Assembly (NCBI GenBank): GCA_947588605.1
Contig: CANPYK010000001.1
Location: 62,001-126,000, forward strand
Reading direction: 5' to 3'
Source of the DNA: an uncultured Oscillospiraceae bacterium
Lineage (GTDB): Bacteria > Bacillota > Clostridia > Oscillospirales > Oscillospiraceae
Length of the DNA: 64,000 nt
The position numbers and the translations under genes are program-made. Below are positions 4,662 to 54,065 of the stretch, piece by piece; position 1 is the first letter of the stretch, and each line of letters starts with the position of its first letter. The notes beneath the pieces were generated by a model, which ran no database searches, was not told the origin of the DNA, and was given only the letters and a program-made list of their open reading frames with translations.

Positions 4662-4745
4662 CGCCGGGCCTTTAACCACCCCTGCCGCTTCGCGGCTGTC
4701 CCCGACCTTGGAGGGGCTAAAGGAGGCAGGTCGTGTTACCGGAAT

Positions 4746-5190
4746 GATTCCGATAAATCGCACCCACCCCCGATTGAGAGCCCTCCCCGCAGGGCGGGGA
4801 GGGGGAGGGGTGAGGTGGGAGCCGAAGGGCTTTGAGTGGCTGCGATGAACACACCCACCTCATCCGGCGCCTGCGGGCGCCACCTTCCCCGCCCTGCGGG
4901 GAAGGCTAAGACGGGGGACGGGGGTTCGAATACCCCGCCGCCGCGGCGGCACCCCTTTTTCCGAAAAAGGGGTCGGGGGAACAAGGATGCGGCGCTTCGC
5001 GCCGCCTTTATAAAAATTGCGCCGCATAGCGGCGCAAACCTTTTTGACCCCCTTTGGGGCAAAGGGGGTAGGGGGGATTCGAGCCCCCGTCCCCGCCGCA
5101 GCGGGCAAATCAAAAAAATGCGGCGAAGCCGCAAACCTTTTTAAGCCCCCTCCTCGTAGGAGGGGGGCAGGGGGGAAGCGAGCGTCGGAA
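4746..5190. repeat. intergenic palindromic mosaic, family II
   Basis: About 450 bp of back-to-back hairpins with no gene: CCCTCCCCGC/GCGGGGAGGG, then GAGGTGGGAGCCGAAGGGC, CGGCGCCTGCGGGCGCC, CCCCGCCCTGCGGGG, a GGGGTTCGAATACCCC arm, GCCGCCGCGGCGGC, CCCCTTTTTCCGAAAAAGGGG, two GCGGCGC stems around TTTATAAAAATT, CCCCCTTTGGGGCAAAGGGGG, and finally the CCTCCTCGTAGGAGG hairpin. The block order matches 19664-20372, 30040-30595 (reverse) and 36470-36905 (reverse). Confidence 0.8.
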
Positions 5191-5235
5191 AAGAGAGCGG
5201 CCCCGACAAACCGCGCCCCCAAAGCCCTCCGGGGG

Positions 5236-11640: not shown

Positions 11641-11665
11641 GGGCGGGTCTGGGACCCGCCCCTAC
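11641..11665. repeat. solo GGCGGGT hairpin inside the ilv operon
   Basis: GGGCGGGT/ACCCGCCC hairpin followed by CTAC, a single member of hairpin family I, sitting between ilvC and ilvD. No T-run follows, so it is unlikely to stop transcription fully. Confidence 0.7.
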
Positions 11666-15138: not shown

Positions 15139-15461
15139 ATACTAATATCTAATTAAAACAAGACATTCGCGACGGTCTTTTTCGCGTCGTCGTCGCTGAA
15201 CACGCTTTGCTTCGGGCTCCCGTTGGTCGCCCATCTCGGCCCAAGAGCCGCCGCTGCGCGGCGGTTGGCCTCGAAACACGCCTGCGGGCGCAGTCAGGCG
15301 CTGTGTTCGCTCCTCCTCTCCCCAGCGGGCTTTGCCCGCCGGGGACCTCAGGGGGCGTCAGCCGCCTTGGAAATACCAATGGGTATTCCCTGCGGCGTCT
15401 TCCAAGCCTTACGCGAAAAATCCTCGCCGCTCGGTGTCTCCTTTTAAATAGATATTAGTAT
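15139..15461. repeat. MITE-like palindromic element, copy 1
   Basis: A 323-bp element with imperfect terminal inverted repeats of about 50 bp. Left end ATACTAATATCTAATTAAAA, then GCGACGGTCTTTTTCGCGT; right end ACGCGAAAAATCCTCGCCGC, then TTTTAAATAGATATTAGTAT. The core (GGCGTCAGCCGCCTTGG, GTATTCCCTGCGGCGTCTTCC) matches copy 2 at 38900-39060. This copy holds about 150 bp more, including the nested module at about 15229-15294. No ORF with plausible coding content. Confidence 0.8.
15229..15294 (-). repeat. nested palindromic module, copy 1
   Basis: Reverse-oriented copy of a roughly 67-bp module (GACTGCGCCCGCAGGCGTGT, CCGCCGCGCAGCGGCGG, GGGCCGAGATGGGC on the minus strand) inside the MITE-like element. 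Other copies: 19992-20060 and 37263-37330. Confidence 0.75.
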
Positions 15462-15471
15462 TACTGCCATG

Positions 15472-15556
15472 TGGGCCGCCGTGGGCGGCGGCCCCTACAA
15501 CGTTTTTTCGTACGGCTGCATCAGAAGCCGTACGGGCCGCCGCCCACGGCGGCCCA
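15472..15556. repeat. long hairpin upstream of leuB
   Basis: Inverted repeat GGGCCGCCGTGGGCGGCGGC near 15472 and GCCGCCGCCCACGGCGGCCC near 15536, with a smaller CGTACGGCT/AGCCGTACG stem in the middle. It is a member of hairpin family I, in the leader of leuB. Confidence 0.75.
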
Positions 15557-19508: not shown

Positions 19509-20372
19509 TGTAGGGGCGGGTTCCAAACCCGCCCCTACAGGGGATATGGAAGGTTATACCATTCAACCGACATCAGAAGTCATCGAAACGCGGGCCGCCG
19601 GGGACGGCGACCCCTACGGCGTAATTGGGAAGGATACGGATCCTCGGGACCGTTCTGACATCCGACGTTCGCTTCCCCCCTGCCCCCTCCTACGAGGAGG
19701 GGGCCCTGAGACGGGAGCGGTTGCGATTTTTTGAAACCGTTCCGTTATCGTACCCTCTCTTGCCCCTCCTACGGAGGGGTGGCCGAGCGAAGCGAGGCCG
19801 GGGTGGTTCCGAAATTCGCCTCCCGGAAGCCCCAGCGACGCTCCACGGGCTCGAATACCTCGCCGCTGCGGCGGCACCCCTTTTTCCGAAAAAGGGGTCA
19901 AGGGGAATAAGGTTGCGGCGCTACGCGCCGCGTTTATAAAAAATTGCGCCGCATAGCGGCGCAAAACCTTTCTGACCCCCTTTGGGGCAAAGGCTGCGCC
20001 CGCAGGCGCGTTTCGGAGGCCAACCGCCCCGAAGGGGCGGCTCTTAGGCCGGAGATGGGCAGGGGGGATTCGAGCCCCCGTCCCCGCCGCAGCGGATAAA
20101 TCAAAACAGCGGCGAAGCCACAACCATTTTCGCCCCCTCCTCGTAGGAGGGGGGCAGGGGGGCAGCGAGCGTGGGATGACTACGCGTTTCCGACAAACCG
20201 CCCCAGCCCCCGGTTTAGAGCCCTCCCCGCAGGGCGGGGAGGGGCAGGGGTGAGGTGGGAGCCGAAGGGCTTTGGGCGGTTTCGATGAACGCACGCACCT
20301 CATCCGGCGCCTGCGGGCGCCGCCTTCCCCACTTTGTGGGGAAGGCTAAGACGGGGGACGAGGGAATACCTC
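19509..20372. repeat. composite repeat block (families I and II)
   Basis: Fills the gap after ridA. 19509-19623 is a partial family I copy in reverse orientation (TAGGGGCGGG hairpin, linker with ATACCATTCAACCGACAT, then a GCCGCCGGGGACGGCGACCC hairpin of mixed type). 19664-20372 is family II: CCTCCTACGAGGAGG, GCCCCTCCTACGGAGGGG, CCCCTTTTTCCGAAAAAGGGG, GCGGCGC stems, CCCCCTTTGGGG interrupted by the nested module at 19992-20060, CCTCCTCGTAGGAGG, CCCTCCCCGCAGGGCGGGG and GGCGCCTGCGGGCGCC. Confidence 0.8.
19992..20060 (+). repeat. nested palindromic module, copy 2
   Basis: GGCTGCGCCCGCAGGCGCGT onward with stems GGCC/GGCC and CCGCCCC/GGGGCGG. It interrupts a CCCCCTTTGGGGCAAAGGGGG hairpin that is intact at 5047-5072, which defines the insertion. 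Confidence 0.78.
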
Positions 20373-21799: not shown

Positions 21800-22270
21800 C
21801 CGCCCCCCCCCCTCCTGCGAGGAGGGGGCTTTTTTAAAAGGTTGCGGCTTCGCCGCATTTTTTATTATCCGCGCGGCGGGGACGGGGGACGGGGGACGAG
21901 GGGACGGGCGGGTTTGGAACCCGCCCCTACAGTTTTTGGAACGTTTCCGAGCAACACCGTAGGGGCCGCCTCCCTTGGCGGCCCGCGTTGCAGGGTTCGG
22001 ATTGCCCCCAGTTACCGTCGTAGGGGTCGCCGTCCCCGGCGACCCGCGTTTCAATGACCTCCTATGTTAAATGAATGGGATACCTTTCCAATTCACCTGT
22101 AGGGGCGGGTTCTAAACCCGCCCGTGCCACGTTGCGGGACGGGAACGGTCCCGATAAAACGGAAATTGGTGGTCAACCGGGGAAGGGCCGCTGTGGGCGG
22201 CGGCCCGTACGGCGTTGATTGGAACGAGTCAATAAACGAGAGGCGGGTCGTCGAGGACGGCGACCCCTAC
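21800..22270. repeat. composite repeat block with full family I array
   Basis: 21800-21903 is a short family II segment (CCTCCTGCGAGGAGG, GCGGCTTCGCCGC). 21906-22270 is a complete six-hairpin family I array, forward: GGGCGGGTTTGGAACCCGCC; GGGGCCGCCTCCCTTGGCGGCCC; GGGTCGCCGTCCCCGGCGACCC; GGGGCGGGTTCTAAACCCGCCC; GGGCCGCTGTGGGCGGCGGCCC-type; GGGTCGTCGAGGACGGCGACCC. Conserved linkers include ATGAATGGGATACCTTTCC and GACGGGAACGGTCCCGATAA. Confidence 0.82.
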
Positions 22271-27300: not shown

Positions 27301-27667
27301 GTAGGGGTCGCCGTCCCCGGCGACCCGCCCATCGTCGATTGACCCGTCCCGAACACCGCCGTACGGGCCGCCGCCCACGGCGGCCCACCCTCCGATAACC
27401 ACCAATTTCCGTTTTATCGGGACCGTTCCGTCCCGCAACGCGGGCACGGGCGGGTTTGGAACCCGCCCCTACAGGGGATATGGAAGGTCATACCATTCAA
27501 CCGACACCGGAGGTCATCGCAACGCGGGCCGCCAAGAGAGGCGGCCCCTGCGGCGTTCATCGGGGGCAATCCAAAATCTGCAACGCGGGCCGCTGTGGGC
27601 AGCGGCCCGTACAGCGTTGCTTGGAAAAATTCCAAAAACTGTAGGGGCGGGTTCCAAACCCGCCCGT
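27301..27667. repeat. family I hairpin array, reverse orientation
   Basis: A complete six-hairpin array in the orientation opposite to 21906-22270. Linkers match (ATACCATTCAACCGACACC, ATCGGGACCGTTCCGTCCCG, CGATTGACCCGTCCCGAACA), but the hairpins at two homologous positions have changed type: GGGCCGCCAAGAGAGGCGGCCC stands where the other arrays have GGGTCGCCG stems, and GGGCCGCTGTGGGCAGCGGCCC where they have GGCCGCC stems. No gene here. Confidence 0.82.
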
Positions 27668-29652: not shown

Positions 29653-30021
29653 ACGGGCGGGTGTGGAACCCGCCCCTACAGTTTTTGGAATGTTTCCAAT
29701 CAACGCCGTAGGGGCGGCCTCTCTTGGCCGCCCGCGTTTCAGGTTTCAGATTGCCCCCGACAAACGCCGTAGGGGTCGCCGTCCCCGGCGACCCGTGTTG
29801 CGATGATTTCCGAAGGTGGTTGAATGGTATTGCCTTCCAAATTTTCTGTAGGGGCGGGTTCTAAACCCGCCCGTGCCACGTGGCGTGACGGGAACGGTTC
29901 CGATGAAACGGAAATTGGTGATTATCGGGGGGCAAGGGCCGCTGTGGGCAGCGGCCCGTACGGCGTTGTTCGGGGCGGGTCAATGGTCGAGAGGCGGGTC
30001 GCCCGGGAGGGCGACCCCTAC
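29653..30021. repeat. family I hairpin array, forward orientation
   Basis: Six hairpins in the same order and with the same linkers as 21906-22270. The second hairpin is GGGGCGGCC/GGCCGCCC here rather than GGGGCCGCC/GGCGGCCC, and the last is GGGTCGCCCGGGAGGGCGACCC; in both cases the two arms changed together. Confidence 0.82.
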
Positions 30022-30039
30022 ATGGACGCATTATTGGGA

Positions 30040-30595
30040 CCGCTCTATCATCCAACCTTCGCTGCCCCCCTGCCCCCCTCCTACGAGGAGGGGGCGAAAA
30101 AAGGATGCGCCGCTTTGCGGCGCAATTTTTATATAAAGGCGGCGCGAAGCGCCGCAACCTTATTCCCCCGACCCCTTTTTCGGAAAAAGGGGTGCCGCCG
30201 CAGCGGCGGGGTATTCGAGCCCCCGTCCCCCGTCCCCCGTCCCTCGTCCCCCGTCTTAGCCTTCCCCACAAAGTGGGGAAGGTGGCGCCCGCAGGCGCCG
30301 GATGAGGTGGGTGCGTTCATCGGGGCCGATTGCAGCCCTTCGACTCCCACCTCACCCCTCCCCCTCCCCGCCCCGCAGGGAGGGCTCTGAGTCGGAGCGG
30401 GTGCGATGATTTGGGCGGTCAGATAGACGGAACCACCCCGGCGCTTCGCGCCACCCCGACCTGGGAGGGGCAAGAGTAGGTGCGTTGACGGACCAGTTCC
30501 GATAAAACACGCCATCCCCGGTCTTCGGGCCCCCTCCTCGTAGGAGGGGGGCAGGGGGGTAGCGAGCGTTGGAGACAGACTGGTTCCGACAAACC
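30040..30595. repeat. family II palindromic mosaic
   Basis: The gap before the TetR gene is filled by CCTCCTACGAGGAGG, GCGCCGC stems around TTTTTATATAAA, CCCCTTTTTCGGAAAAAGGGG, GCCGCCGCAGCGGCGG, a tandem of CCCCCGTC units (30223-30254), the GGCGCCCGCAGGCGCC hairpin, CCCCGCCCCGCAGGGAGGG and a final CCTCCTCGTAGGAGG hairpin. No gene. Confidence 0.8.
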
Positions 30596-36437: not shown

Positions 36438-36905
36438 GGGCGGGTTCCAAACCCGCCCGCTTTTTCGATATCGGCACATTCATCCCACGCTCGCTGCCCC
36501 CCTGCCCCCCTCCTACGAGGAGGGGGCGAAAAAGGTTTGCGCCGCTATGCGGCGCAATTTTTATAAAGGCGGCGCAAAGCGCCGCAACCTTATTCCCCTT
36601 GACCCCTTTTTCGGAAAAAGGGGTGCCGCCGCAGCGGCGGGGTATTCGAGCCCTCGTCCCCCGTCTTAGCCTTCCCCACAAAGTGGGGAAGGTGGCGCCC
36701 GCAGGCGCCGGATGAGGTGGGTGCGTTCATCGAAACCGGTTGCAGTCCTTCGGCTCCCACCTCACCCCTGCCCCTCCCCGCCCTGCGGGGAGGGCTCTAA
36801 ATCGGGGGCGGGTGCGTTCATCGGAACCGTGTGCAGGCTTCAAACCCGGTATCCGCCGCGGCGGGGACGACCCTTTCGGCGCTTCGCGCCACCTCCCCCA
36901 GGGGG
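36434..36905. repeat. solo family I hairpin plus family II mosaic
   Basis: 36434-36460 is a GTAGGGGCGGGTTCC-type hairpin that starts inside the toxin stop codon. 36485-36905 is family II in reverse: CCTCCTACGAGGAGG, GCGCCGC stems around TTTTTATAAA, CCCCTTTTTCGGAAAAAGGGG, GCCGCCGCAGCGGCGG, GCGCCCGCAGGCGCC, CCCCGCCCTGCGGGG and GGCGCTTCGCGCC. No gene. Confidence 0.8.
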
Positions 36906-36913
36906 GAGGTTAA

Positions 36914-37341
36914 CGGGCGGGTTTGGAACCCGCCCCTACAGTTTCCAGATTGCGTTCAATCCCCGCCATAGGGGCCGCCTCTCTTGGCGGCCCGCGTTTC
37001 GGGTTTCGGATTGCCCCCAATAAACGCCGTAGGGGTCGCCGTCCCCGGCGACCCGCGTTTCGACAACCTCCCATGTCGGTTGAATGGAATACCCTTCCTC
37101 ATCCCCTGTAGGGGCGGGTTCCAAACCCGCCCGTGCCGCGTTGCGGGACGGGAACGGTTCCGATAAAACGGTAAATGCCGGTCAACGAAAAAGGGCCGCT
37201 GTAGGCAGCGGCCCGTACGGCGTTGTTCGGGATGGGTCAATGGTCGATAGGCGGGCCGCCAAGACTACGCCCGCAGGCGTGTTTCGAAGCGCAACCGCCG
37301 CGAAGCGGCGGCTCTTAGCGCGCAGATGAGGCGGCCCCTAC
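36914..37341. repeat. family I hairpin array interrupted by nested module
   Basis: A full forward array with the same linkers as 21906-22270. Its sixth hairpin (GGGCCGCC/GGCGGCCCCTAC) has the roughly 68-bp nested module (37263-37330) inserted in its loop. Confidence 0.82.
37263..37330 (+). repeat. nested palindromic module, copy 3
   Basis: GACTACGCCCGCAGGCGTGT onward, with GCGC/GCGC and CCGCCGC/GCGGCGG stems replacing the GGCC/GGCC and CCGCCCC/GGGGCGG stems of copy 2: both arms changed together. Inserted in a family I hairpin loop. Confidence 0.78.
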
Positions 37342-38899: not shown

Positions 38900-39060
38900 A
38901 TACTAATCGCCAAATAAAATCTTTCATTCGCGGCGGTCTTTTTCGTGTCATGCGGCGTCAGCCGCCTTGGGAATACATACAGTATTCCCTGCGGCGTCTT
39001 CCTTGCCTGACGCGAAAAATCCTCGCCGCTCGGTGAAAGCTTTTAATCGGCGATTAGTAT
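38900..39060. repeat. MITE-like palindromic element, copy 2
   Basis: A 161-bp element. Left end ATACTAATCGCCAAATAAAA, right end TTTTAATCGGCGATTAGTAT; inner arms GCGGCGGTCTTTTTCGTGTCA and TGACGCGAAAAATCCTCGCC. It shares its core with copy 1 (15139-15461), but the terminal octamers ATACTAAT are followed by CGCC here and ATCTA there, each matched in the opposite arm. It lies about 10 nt upstream of the guaB ribosome-binding site. Confidence 0.8.
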
Positions 39061-40646: not shown

Positions 40647-40781
40647 ACGGGCGGGTTTGGAACCCGCCCCTACATTTTTTAAATTGCCTTCAATAGATGC
40701 CGTACGGGCCGCCGCCCAGGTTGGCCCTTTTTATGGGATTTCTTCCTATTTCCCTTGTAGGGGCGGGTTCCAAACCCGCCC
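40647..40781. repeat. degenerate family I array
   Basis: GGGCGGGTTTGGAACCCGCC hairpin, decayed GGGCCGCCGCCCAGGTTGGCCC hairpin, and a GTAGGGGCGGGTTCC hairpin, with worn linkers. Shorter than the full arrays. Confidence 0.72.
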
Positions 40782-42768: not shown

Positions 42769-43470
42769 GGGGCGGGTTTAGACCCCGCCCGCTTTTTCGA
42801 TACCGCCCTGTCATCCCACGTTCGCTACCCCCCCTGCCCCCCTCCTACGAGGAGGGGGCGAAAAAGGTTGCGGCTTCGCCGCAGATTTGATTATCCGCTG
42901 CGGCGGGGACGGGGGACGAAGGACGGGCGGGTTTAGAACCCGCCCCTACAGTTTCCAATTTACCTTCCATCCCCGCTGTAGGGGCCGCCTCTCTTGGCGG
43001 CCCGCGTTTCGATGACCTCCGGTGTCGGTTGAATGGGATAACCTTCCACATCCCCTGTAGGGGCGGGTTCCAAACCCGCCCGCGCCACGTTGCGTGACGG
43101 GAACGGTTCCGACAAATGGCACCCGCCCCCGTCCCGGAGCCCCCTCCTCGTAGGAGGGGGGCAGGGGGGAAGCGAGGGTTGAGGGACAGAGCGGTATCGA
43201 CAGAACGTACCTGCCCCCGTCCCGGAGCCCTCCCCGCGGGGCGGGGAGGGGCAGGGGTGAGGTGGGAGCCGAAGGGCTTTGGGCGGTTCCGATGAACGCA
43301 CCCACCTCATCCGGCGCCTGCGGGCGCCACCTTCCCCGCCTTGCGGGGAAGGCCAGGACGGCGGACCCTTCCGCCTCGCTACGCTCGGCACCTCCCCCAC
43401 GGGGGAGGTTATGAAGCTCCCCCGTGGGGGAGCTGGCACGGCCGAAGGCCGTGACTGAGGGGTTCCGCCG
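42769..43470. repeat. composite repeat block next to rplA
   Basis: 42769-42792 solo GGGGCGGGTTTAGACCCCGCC hairpin; 42785-42920 family II (CCTCCTACGAGGAGG, GCGGCTTCGCCGC); 42923-43116 a shortened family I array (hairpins 1, 2 and 4 of the usual six); 43117-43470 family II (CCTCCTCGTAGGAGG, CCCTCCCCGCGGGGCGGGG, GGCGCCTGCGGGCGCC, CCCCGCCTTGCGGGG, then CTCCCCCACGGGGGAG and GGCCGAAGGCC). No gene. The right side abuts the rplA terminator. Confidence 0.8.
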
Positions 43471-52369: not shown

Positions 52370-52530
52370 CTCCCCCCCTGGGGGAGGCGGCGCGAAGCGC
52401 CGGAAGGGTCGTCCCCGCCGCGCGGGCAAATCCAAACTGCGGCGCAGCCGCAACCTTTTTTGCCCCCCTCCTCGTAGGAGGGGGGCAGGGGAGCGGCGAG
52501 CGTGGGATGACAGATCGGCCTCGATGACCC
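52370..52530. repeat. family II palindromic block
   Basis: CTCCCCCCTGGGGGAG, GCGCGAAGCGC, GCGGCGCAGCCGC and the CCTCCTCGTAGGAGG hairpin with the AGCGAGCGTGGGATGACAG linker; shared with the other family II blocks. Confidence 0.75.
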
Positions 52531-52638
52531 GCCGCCCTGAAATTCCGCCCCCGCAACTGAAAATTGACACAAATGCAACGCCCGCGCGGTTTCCTTTTTC
52601 GGGGGATGCGCTACAATAGAAGCGAAGGAGTGATGGAG

Positions 52639-53478
52639 ATGTTATCGAAAAAGCTGGCGGAGCTCAGAAAGGGAAGGGGCCTCTCCCAGATGGAGCTGGC
52701 GGAGAAGCTGGACGTGACGCGTCAGGCCGTGTCCCGGTGGGAGACGGGGGAGGCCGCGCCGAGTTTGGACAACCTCATCTCCCTCAGCGGACTCTACGGC
52801 GTGACGCTGGACGACCTTGTCCGGGACGACAAGCCCGTCCCCGCCGTGCCTTCGCCCGAACCGGTCCCGCCGGAGGCCGCGGTCCCCAAGCCCGCCCGGG
52901 CCAAATACAAGATCTGGGCCCTGGTCCTTGCCGCCGCCCTGGTCCTCGCCGTGCCGGCCCTATTTATCGGCGCGTTGCTCCTCCAGCTCCTGGCGCCGCC
53001 CAAGACGTCCCTGGCCCGCCCCACCGAGCCCGGTCCCGGACAGACGAGCCCTACCGCCCCGTATACGGCGGATCTGGAACAGGCTGACCCGCCCTTCGCG
53101 GCGACGGCGGACCTGCTCCCTGCCTTTACGGAGGAGAAGCGGGTTTTTCAGGACGCCGCCGCGCGGCATTCCCTGACGGCCCGGGGACAGGGAGACGGGA
53201 CATACGCCGTGTCCGAGGAGACTTTCACCCTCCCGGCCGCCTATACGCGCCTTGCGCTTCAATGTACCTGGAGCGGCTATGCGGACGTGACCGTGGGCCT
53301 TCGCGATACCGGCGCCGGCCAGGTCTATACCCTCCGCCTCACCGGCCGTTCCGCCGCCGGCTCCCTCTCTCTGCGCGCCCTGCCCCCGGGGGAGTATGAG
53401 GTCGTTTTGTACGGAGGGTACAGGTTTGAGGATGACCCCCTGGCGGTCATGTGGTATCAGCTCCAGGCCGGTGACTAA
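52639..53478 (+). CDS. membrane-anchored XRE-family regulator
   Basis: A 279-residue protein: N-terminal XRE helix-turn-helix (residues 3-62, LRKGRGLSQMELAEKLDVTR, VSRWETGEAAPSLDNLI), Pro-rich linker (65-87), one membrane helix (91-118), and an external domain of mostly beta character with no recognised family. The layout suggests a one-component membrane sensor that signals from the cell surface to DNA. ATG at 52639 has AAGGAG 8 nt upstream. It stands alone between repeat blocks; a loose -10 TACAAT lies at 52612. Confidence 0.82.
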   Translation: MLSKKLAELRKGRGLSQMELAEKLDVTRQAVSRWETGEAAPSLDNLISLSGLYGVTLDDLVRDDKPVPAVPSPEPVPPEAAVPKPARAKYKIWALVLAAALVLAVPALFIGALLLQLLAPPKTSLARPTEPGPGQTSPTAPYTADLEQADPPFAATADLLPAFTEEKRVFQDAAARHSLTARGQGDGTYAVSEETFTLPAAYTRLALQCTWSGYADVTVGLRDTGAGQVYTLRLTGRSAAGSLSLRALPPGEYEVVLYGGYRFEDDPLAVMWYQLQAGD

Positions 53479-53483
53479 GCAGG

Positions 53484-54065
53484 GGCGGGTTCCAACCCCG
53501 CCCGTTAACCTCCCCCCTGGGGGAGGCGGCGCGAAGCGCCGGAAGGGTCGCTGCGGCGGCATTTATCGGAACCGCTCTGTCAACCCACGTTCGCTACCCC
53601 CCTGCCCCCCTCCTACGAGGAGGGGGCTCCGGGACGGGGCGGGTACGGAGTATCGGAACAGTTTCGTCACGCCACGTGGCGCGGGCGGGTTTGGAACCCG
53701 CCCCTACGGTGGATATGGAATGTTATCCCATTCAACCGACATGGGAGGCCATCGAAACGCGGGCGGCCAAGAGAGGCCGCCCCTACGGCGTTTAACGAGA
53801 GGCAATTCGAAACCTGTAACGTGGGCCGCTGTGGGCAGCGGCCCGTACGGCGTTGCTTGGAAAAATTCCAAAAACTGTAGGGGCGGGTTCCAAACCCGCC
53901 CGTCCCCCGTCCCCGCCGCGCGGATAATCCAAACTGCGGCGCAAGCCGCAACCTTTTTCGCCCCCTCCTCGCAGGAGGGGGGCAGGGGGGCAGCGAGGGC
54001 TGGATGACAGAGCGGTATCGACAACCCCCCCCACCCCCGCCCCCTCCCAACGGGAGGGGCCAAGA
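53484..54065. repeat. composite repeat block (families I and II)
   Basis: 53484-53507 solo GGGCGGGTTCC hairpin just after the XRE gene; 53509-53640 family II (CTCCCCCCTGGGGGAG, GCGCGAAGCGC, CCTCCTACGAGGAGG); 53661-53902 a reverse family I array missing its outer two hairpins, with GGGCGGCCAAGAGAGGCCGCCC and GGGCCGCTGTGGGCAGCGGCCC stems; 53903-54065 family II remnants. No gene. The remaining 54066-54168 shows nothing recognisable. Confidence 0.8.

Follow-up and report, generated by a model that had tools for sequence, protein, structure and literature searches.

The window, a 64-kb stretch of the 2.34-Mb genome G000 (68 contigs) of a gut-type bacterium, contains at 21906-22270 an array of small DNA hairpins that lies between a glycosyltransferase gene and spo0A, which are convergent. 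The element is about 370 bases long (a 369-base array served as search query), and a full copy holds six hairpins. The original prediction placed full six-hairpin arrays at 21906-22270, 29653-30021 and 36914-37341 and a reverse one at 27301-27667; all four were found there, each with the hairpin order h1-, h2+, h3+, h4+, h5-, h6-, and three of them are indeed full, but the h6 of 36914-37341 (about 37253-37341) is split by a hairpin-rich insert of ~65 nt. The features of the window are given below, with letters for the hairpin types described in the next paragraph.

21906..22270, plus strand: complete six-hairpin array, A- B+ C+ A+ D- C-; h1 21906-21930 A (-), h2 21960-21984 B (+), h3 22021-22045 C (+), h4 22100-22123 A (+), h5 22185-22210 D/d with one mismatch (-), h6 22245-22270 C with one mismatch (-)
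27301..27667, minus strand: complete array, A- D+ B+ A+ d- C-; h1 27642-27665 A, h2 27587-27612 D (GTAC), h3 27526-27551 B, h4 27448-27472 A, h5 27362-27386 d (GTAC), h6 27302-27326 C
29653..30021, plus strand: complete array, A- b+ C+ A+ D- C-; h1 29655-29679 A-like, h2 29709-29733 b, h3 29770-29794 C, h4 29849-29872 A, h5 29936-29961 D (GTAC), h6 29996-30021 C variant GGGTCGCCC
36914..37341, plus strand: array with interrupted h6, A- B+ C+ A+ D- and the split h6; h1 36915-36939 A, h2 36969-36993 B, h3 37030-37054 C, h4 37109-37132 A, h5 37193-37218 D
53683..53901, minus strand: four-hairpin array (h1-h4 only), A- D+ b+ A+
42925..43081, plus strand: three-hairpin form, A- B+ A+
19510..19617, plus strand: two-hairpin form, A+ C-
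40649..40781, plus strand: two-hairpin form, A- A+
15473..15555, unstranded: two type d hairpins, mutually inverted, that overlap with the start of a gene model of the isopropylmalate/isocitrate dehydrogenase family
11641..11665, minus strand: lone type A hairpin in which one pair change is compensated (GGGCGGGTC/GACCCGCCC)

Each hairpin consists of an unpaired tag and a perfect stem of 8-9 bp that starts with GGG; the loops of array hairpins measure 3-6 bases, and a G usually comes after the closing CCC. The types with a GTAG tag are A (GGGCGGGTT-c(c/t)a), B (GGGCCGCC-tctctt, or with actcct or actctt), b (GGGCGGCC-tctctt), C (GGGTCGCCG-tccc), and F (GGGCGGAC-ccatgt), which is common in one sister species; those with GTAC are D (GGGCCGCTG-ccca) and d (GGGCCGCCG-ccca). 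The tag tracks the stem throughout the aligned arrays, with GTAC on D/d (n=87) and GTAG on A, B, b, C, and F (n=260). The surroundings differ as well: CT precedes type A hairpins in 47 of 57 array cases, and B, C, and D hairpins are embedded in an AACGCC...GCGTT context. Two arrays folded whole as single-stranded DNA gave z = -6.65 and -8.03 against dinucleotide shuffles, and this folding, together with the codon-preserving shuffles described below, excludes pure chance as the origin of the hairpins. A terminal-inverted-repeat transposon or MITE was also rejected, since the array ends are unmatched (h1 of type A and h6 of type C, in the same orientation). An Rfam search of the window returned only an L10 leader and no match to the arrays. 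Short palindromes with an unpaired end tag (GTAC in type D), present in high copy number and in intergenic positions, are what is expected of GTAG-type REPs, and several REPs in set orientations with conserved linkers between them are what is expected of a BIME; we are therefore highly confident that the arrays are composite, BIME-like elements of GTAG-type REPs.

Other repeats were observed alongside. The ~65-nt element (CATCTCCGCGCTAAGAGCCGCCGC...GCGGCGGTTGCGCT...CGCGCCTGCGGGCGCAG) sits within REP hairpins, mostly of type D after GGGCCG, and occurs at L007, L149, L154, L162-L164, L189, and L192 as well as in h6 of the window array 36914-37341; it is also present outside arrays. A second composite repeat family (CCCCCTGCCCCCCTCCTACGAGGAGGGGGC, with hairpins TGCGCCGC/GCGGCGCA), whose copies are up to 96% alike, lies near several arrays (window sites 1904-2044, 4692-5215, 19847-20365, 30033-30571, 36480-36816, 43091-43366, and 52429-54030). 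A 79-nt direct repeat (GTATTCCCTGCGGCGTCTTCC...; 85% identity) is located directly upstream of two long reading frames, at 15383-15461 and 38982-39060.

The array search recovered 203 matching pieces in G000, 41 of them scoring >190 bits, and perfect type A hairpins alone number 212 in its 2.34 Mb. Within the genus, matches of comparable strength were confined to G020 and G033, which were also the closest to G000 by Spo0A identity among the eight species checked (98% and 95%, respectively; the others, ≤73%). G000 and its relatives are draft genomes, and repeats break assemblies. The array at 21906-22270 is absent from the orthologous gap of G020, where other hairpin repeats sit, and in G033 a three-hairpin form adjoins spo0A, indicating that arrays are gained or lost. 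The larger catalogue that the original prediction had set as its test, with the stem type recorded per position, was assembled as an alignment of 75 arrays taken from stretches of these genomes (35 from G000, 35 from G033, and five from G020).

The pooled types at h1 were A (31) and F (8), and those at h4 were A (37) and F (38). At h2 they were B/b (29), D/d (33), and C (2), where two further calls of type A are, as read from the alignment, misalignments of truncated arrays; at h3, C/c (55), B/b (17), and D/d (2); at h5, D/d (63) and C/c (4); and at h6, C (51) and B (4). Only A or F therefore occupies h1 and h4, and only B, C, or D occupies h2, h3, h5, and h6. The claim that the hairpin at a given position differs from array to array held strongly at h2 and h3 inside one genome, but h1, h4, h5, and h6 were nearly type-fixed. 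Between genomes, h4 was A in 33 of 35 arrays of G000 and F in all 35 of G033, and a frequency difference of >0.8 between these two genomes was reached by eight h4 columns versus none of 170 linker columns.

The outer 8 bp were perfect in 320 of the 362 hairpins scored (those with ≤2 mismatches, in the three sister species). Cells changed on both sides and still Watson-Crick paired numbered 161, against 49 with any other change. The swapped unit includes the tag and loop as well as the two arms. One way to read this covariation is selection for a perfect hairpin combined with intrastrand template switching, in which one arm is copied from the other and the types diverge by stepwise compensated substitutions. 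That template switching can keep hairpins intact is known (PMC8794818, as far as its available part goes), and within-type pair flips are seen here with few mismatched intermediates: C:G/T:A at position 8 (D/d), C:G/T:A at position 4 (C/c), and C:G/G:C at position 5 (B/b). Arm copying could explain these flips, and point changes could yield the few hybrid hairpins found, in which a C stem carries a D loop or a d stem a C loop. Changes between types, however, alter the tag, the loop, and several pairs jointly with few intermediates, and arm copying leaves loop and tag unaltered. Because tag and loop change with the arms (e.g., from B, GTAG...tctctt, to D, GTAC...ccca), arm copying alone is insufficient, and we consider selection with arm copying an unlikely account of the exchange. 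The hairpins are exchanged as whole tag-stem-loop units, within two compatibility groups.

That stems are replaced while linkers stay was borne out by the flanking linkers, whose similarity was about equal for arrays of different and of the same stem type (0.672 and 0.693, respectively, at h2 of G000; 0.764 and 0.786 at h3 of G000; 0.798 and 0.789 at h3 of G033). Within G000 or G033, shuffled labels fitted the linker tree as well as the stem type did. Ectopic homologous recombination (gene conversion) between dispersed arrays could shuffle slowly diverged hairpins in such a way that no REP-specific exchange is needed, and the material for it exists, as there are dozens of dispersed array copies with ~75% linker identity and no correlation of stem type with linkers within a genome. 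Its traces may be present in an orthologous pair, G000 C5:96702 and G020 C107, which differs at h2 (B/d), h3 (C/b), and h4 (A/F): the h1-h4 linkers are also diverged and look paralogous, and the h5-h6 half looks orthologous. In a second orthologous pair (G000 C20:11319 and G020 C172) all six hairpin types were equal, with no swap. Orthology was called from long gene matches only, because linking loci by their small flanking reading frames often went wrong through other repeats. Recombination should carry linker variants along, yet arrays of the same type are hardly more alike in their flanking linkers, and two species that share linker variation are each almost uniform at h4, for different types. 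It also leaves the match of stem types to the RAYT-internal hairpins described below unexplained. We judge gene conversion to be a possible but rather doubtful source of the exchange. The original prediction had called for an active process (arm copying or gene conversion) or strong selection for structure; its interpretation is supported in part, namely in the replacement of whole stems beside unchanged linkers.

The genomic context could also suggest that the hairpins act as RNA, protecting mRNA 3' ends or terminating transcription, with stems kept by RNA-level selection. According to a simple gene model based on a codon-position rule, 70 of 71 clusters are intergenic, as are all 19 arrays with ≥4 hairpins; for the 18 of the latter with both neighbours known, eight gaps are convergent, ten tandem, and none divergent, as with REPs elsewhere (PMC3733652). 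The strand bias that had been proposed as a check did not appear, since G-T mismatches were not in excess over A-C mismatches on either the tag strand (17 vs 19) or the array strand (21 vs 15), which gives no sign of selection on RNA. Furthermore, the unpaired tag is as well conserved as the paired part, and the two change together; neither would be needed in a hairpin that stabilises RNA. RNA-level selection is thus very improbable as the cause of stem conservation.

GTAG-type REPs are linked to RAYTs, which are single-strand HUH nucleases (PMC2817692, PMC8266576, and the available part of PMC6006769). A RAYT of the genus matches TnpA_REP (PDB 4ER8), and the HUH and Tyr motifs are present. 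Hairpin-bearing RAYT loci were detected as weak matches in seven genomes of the genus by a Pfam search, and in an eighth, G017 (L199), by an alignment search. Their reading frames contain two tagged hairpins in mutually inverted orientation, one on each side of the HUH codons. The 104 loci examined in the family and genus yielded 93 RAYTs, of which 61 had a tagged perfect hairpin at both sites, from -105 to -204 nt before the HUH codons and from +32 to +66 nt after them. The two internal stems agreed in their first six bases in 56 of the 93, a fraction that may be inflated by the use of hairpin-bearing queries, which biases the sample to such genes; the permuted mean was 7.7 and the maximum 18 in 10,000 permutations. 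Synonymous-codon shuffling within each RAYT gene gave hairpin pairs in 0 of 4650 cases. The original prediction did not recognise what its hairpins are, namely GTAG-type REPs that have RAYT-internal counterparts in sister species.

Across the family (L169, L170, L172, L173, L175, L178, and L199-L288), the RAYT-internal stem varies from gene to gene and is the same in both copies. Extra copies of the same-stem hairpin lie ≤600 nt upstream of the RAYT at a few loci (L201, L205, L207, and L209). In L218, a RAYT of another genus, both internal type A hairpins occupy the same sites and point inwards, opposite to all other pairs. A second, longer Y1_Tnp-type protein of the genus (278-288 aa) is encoded by a gene without hairpins at L165 2271-3107, and similar genes of ~280 aa are present in G017, G029, and G032.

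Type A stems were found inside RAYTs L173 and L218, type B inside L170 and L174, type C inside L172, and type D, its GTAC tag included, inside L169 and L175; no RAYT with an internal type F or b was found among those recovered. On the RAYT protein tree, built with the hairpin-coded residues left out, the stem type required 34 changes, against 46.4 for shuffled labels (minimum 41), and the stem type is inherited along with the RAYT protein. The RAYTs of the genus with B, C, D, and E stems group in a single clade of eight (support 99), apart from the two A RAYTs, which pair with each other (support 93); this split of A from B/C/D coincides with the division of array positions into two compatibility groups. 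In the eight RAYT-bearing genomes of the genus, the RAYT-internal type is abundant in the genome, and only 14 of 20,000 reassignments were equally good. For example, the A and E RAYTs of G023 are accompanied by 32 A and 32 E hairpins, and types B, C, and D are absent there. The genomes with RAYTs also harbour further REP types for which no RAYT was found. Judging from these sequence correspondences, the stem classes are probably RAYT specificity classes.

No RAYT was found in G000 by the Pfam search, by an alignment search (9 of 174 candidates scored), or by tblastn over 560 kb of partly overlapping sequence; the genome of the window provisionally seems to have none, with the qualification that the Pfam profile missed at least one RAYT elsewhere (G017 C6). 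The Pfam search likewise found no RAYT in G020, and in G033 it yielded two short Y1_Tnp fragments and nothing more, so that any RAYT action in these three genomes would lie in the past.

We regard composite REP arrays, with classes matched to RAYTs and exchange of whole units in two groups, as the best explanation overall (probability about 0.6). Each class of tag, stem, and loop would correspond to the hairpin pair within the reading frame of a particular RAYT, as seen for A, B, C, and D. The array would have been duplicated as a unit into intergenic sites, and other REPs would then have taken over its REP sites time after time, A or F at h1 and h4 (with CT before) and B/b, C, or D at h2, h3, h5, and h6 (within AACGCC...GCGTT). 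For the step of exchange itself, we infer that RAYTs might cut and rejoin single-stranded hairpins at existing REP sites, a proposal that we put at somewhat below even odds. A bolder version, which we hold to be rather improbable, treats REP sites as sockets in which RAYTs of one clade swap hairpins, in arrays and in their own genes, within the same compatibility group and in a single step; if it were true, hairpin sequence would turn over in concert across the genome and the flanking DNA would not. How REPs spread, and why their stems stay perfect despite changing sequence, has long been asked. This system allows identical fixed positions to be compared among dozens of array copies, three close species, and many transposase genes, and most of the transposase genes sampled seem to contain their own substrate in copy. 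Both the exchange step and the match between enzyme specificity and hairpin specificity thereby become directly testable.

The hairpins resemble the GTAG REPs of Di Nocera et al. (2013; PMC3733652) in being palindromes of 20-40 nt with an unpaired GTAG at one end, a perfect stem of 8-9 bp, a short loop, high copy number, intergenic location, and variants with complementary stem changes. They differ in their host, as that paper lists Proteobacteria, Cyanobacteria, Chloroflexi, and the PVC group and ours is of the Bacillota (Oscillospiraceae), in the GTAC of type D, and in the joining of several classes in one fixed six-part element. A REP tag can guide the cutting site, and GTAC redirects cutting in one enzyme (PMC8266576); the CT found before type A hairpins is the usual cutting site. 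The arrays are also similar to the hybrid BIMEs of Stenotrophomonas (Nunvar et al., 2010; PMC2817692), in which oriented REPs of two RAYTs are combined with conserved linkers and palindromes are kept by complementary changes; here, however, the unit is a dispersed 369-nt element of six REPs from several type groups rather than a tandem of basic modules, and the type at a given position is exchanged between copies and species. Hairpin maintenance by template switching, in the available part of PMC8794818, shares the paired changes in both arms but involves no exchange of loop or tag. For TnpA_REP subclass 2.4, the accessible portion of Quentin et al. (2018; PMC6006769) describes REPs in frame inside the gene, between HUH and Tyr, and our RAYTs share this placement together with the MP(N/D)H(hydrophobic)H, WQ, and YI..NP motifs. 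In contrast to that portion, a second REP lies upstream of HUH in most sampled RAYTs, making an inverted same-stem pair at fixed sites, and the RAYT-internal stems match those of multi-REP arrays. Relative to what that portion of the paper covers, the upstream REP partner, the inverted same-stem pair, its near-fixed sites, and the link to array stems appear to be new.
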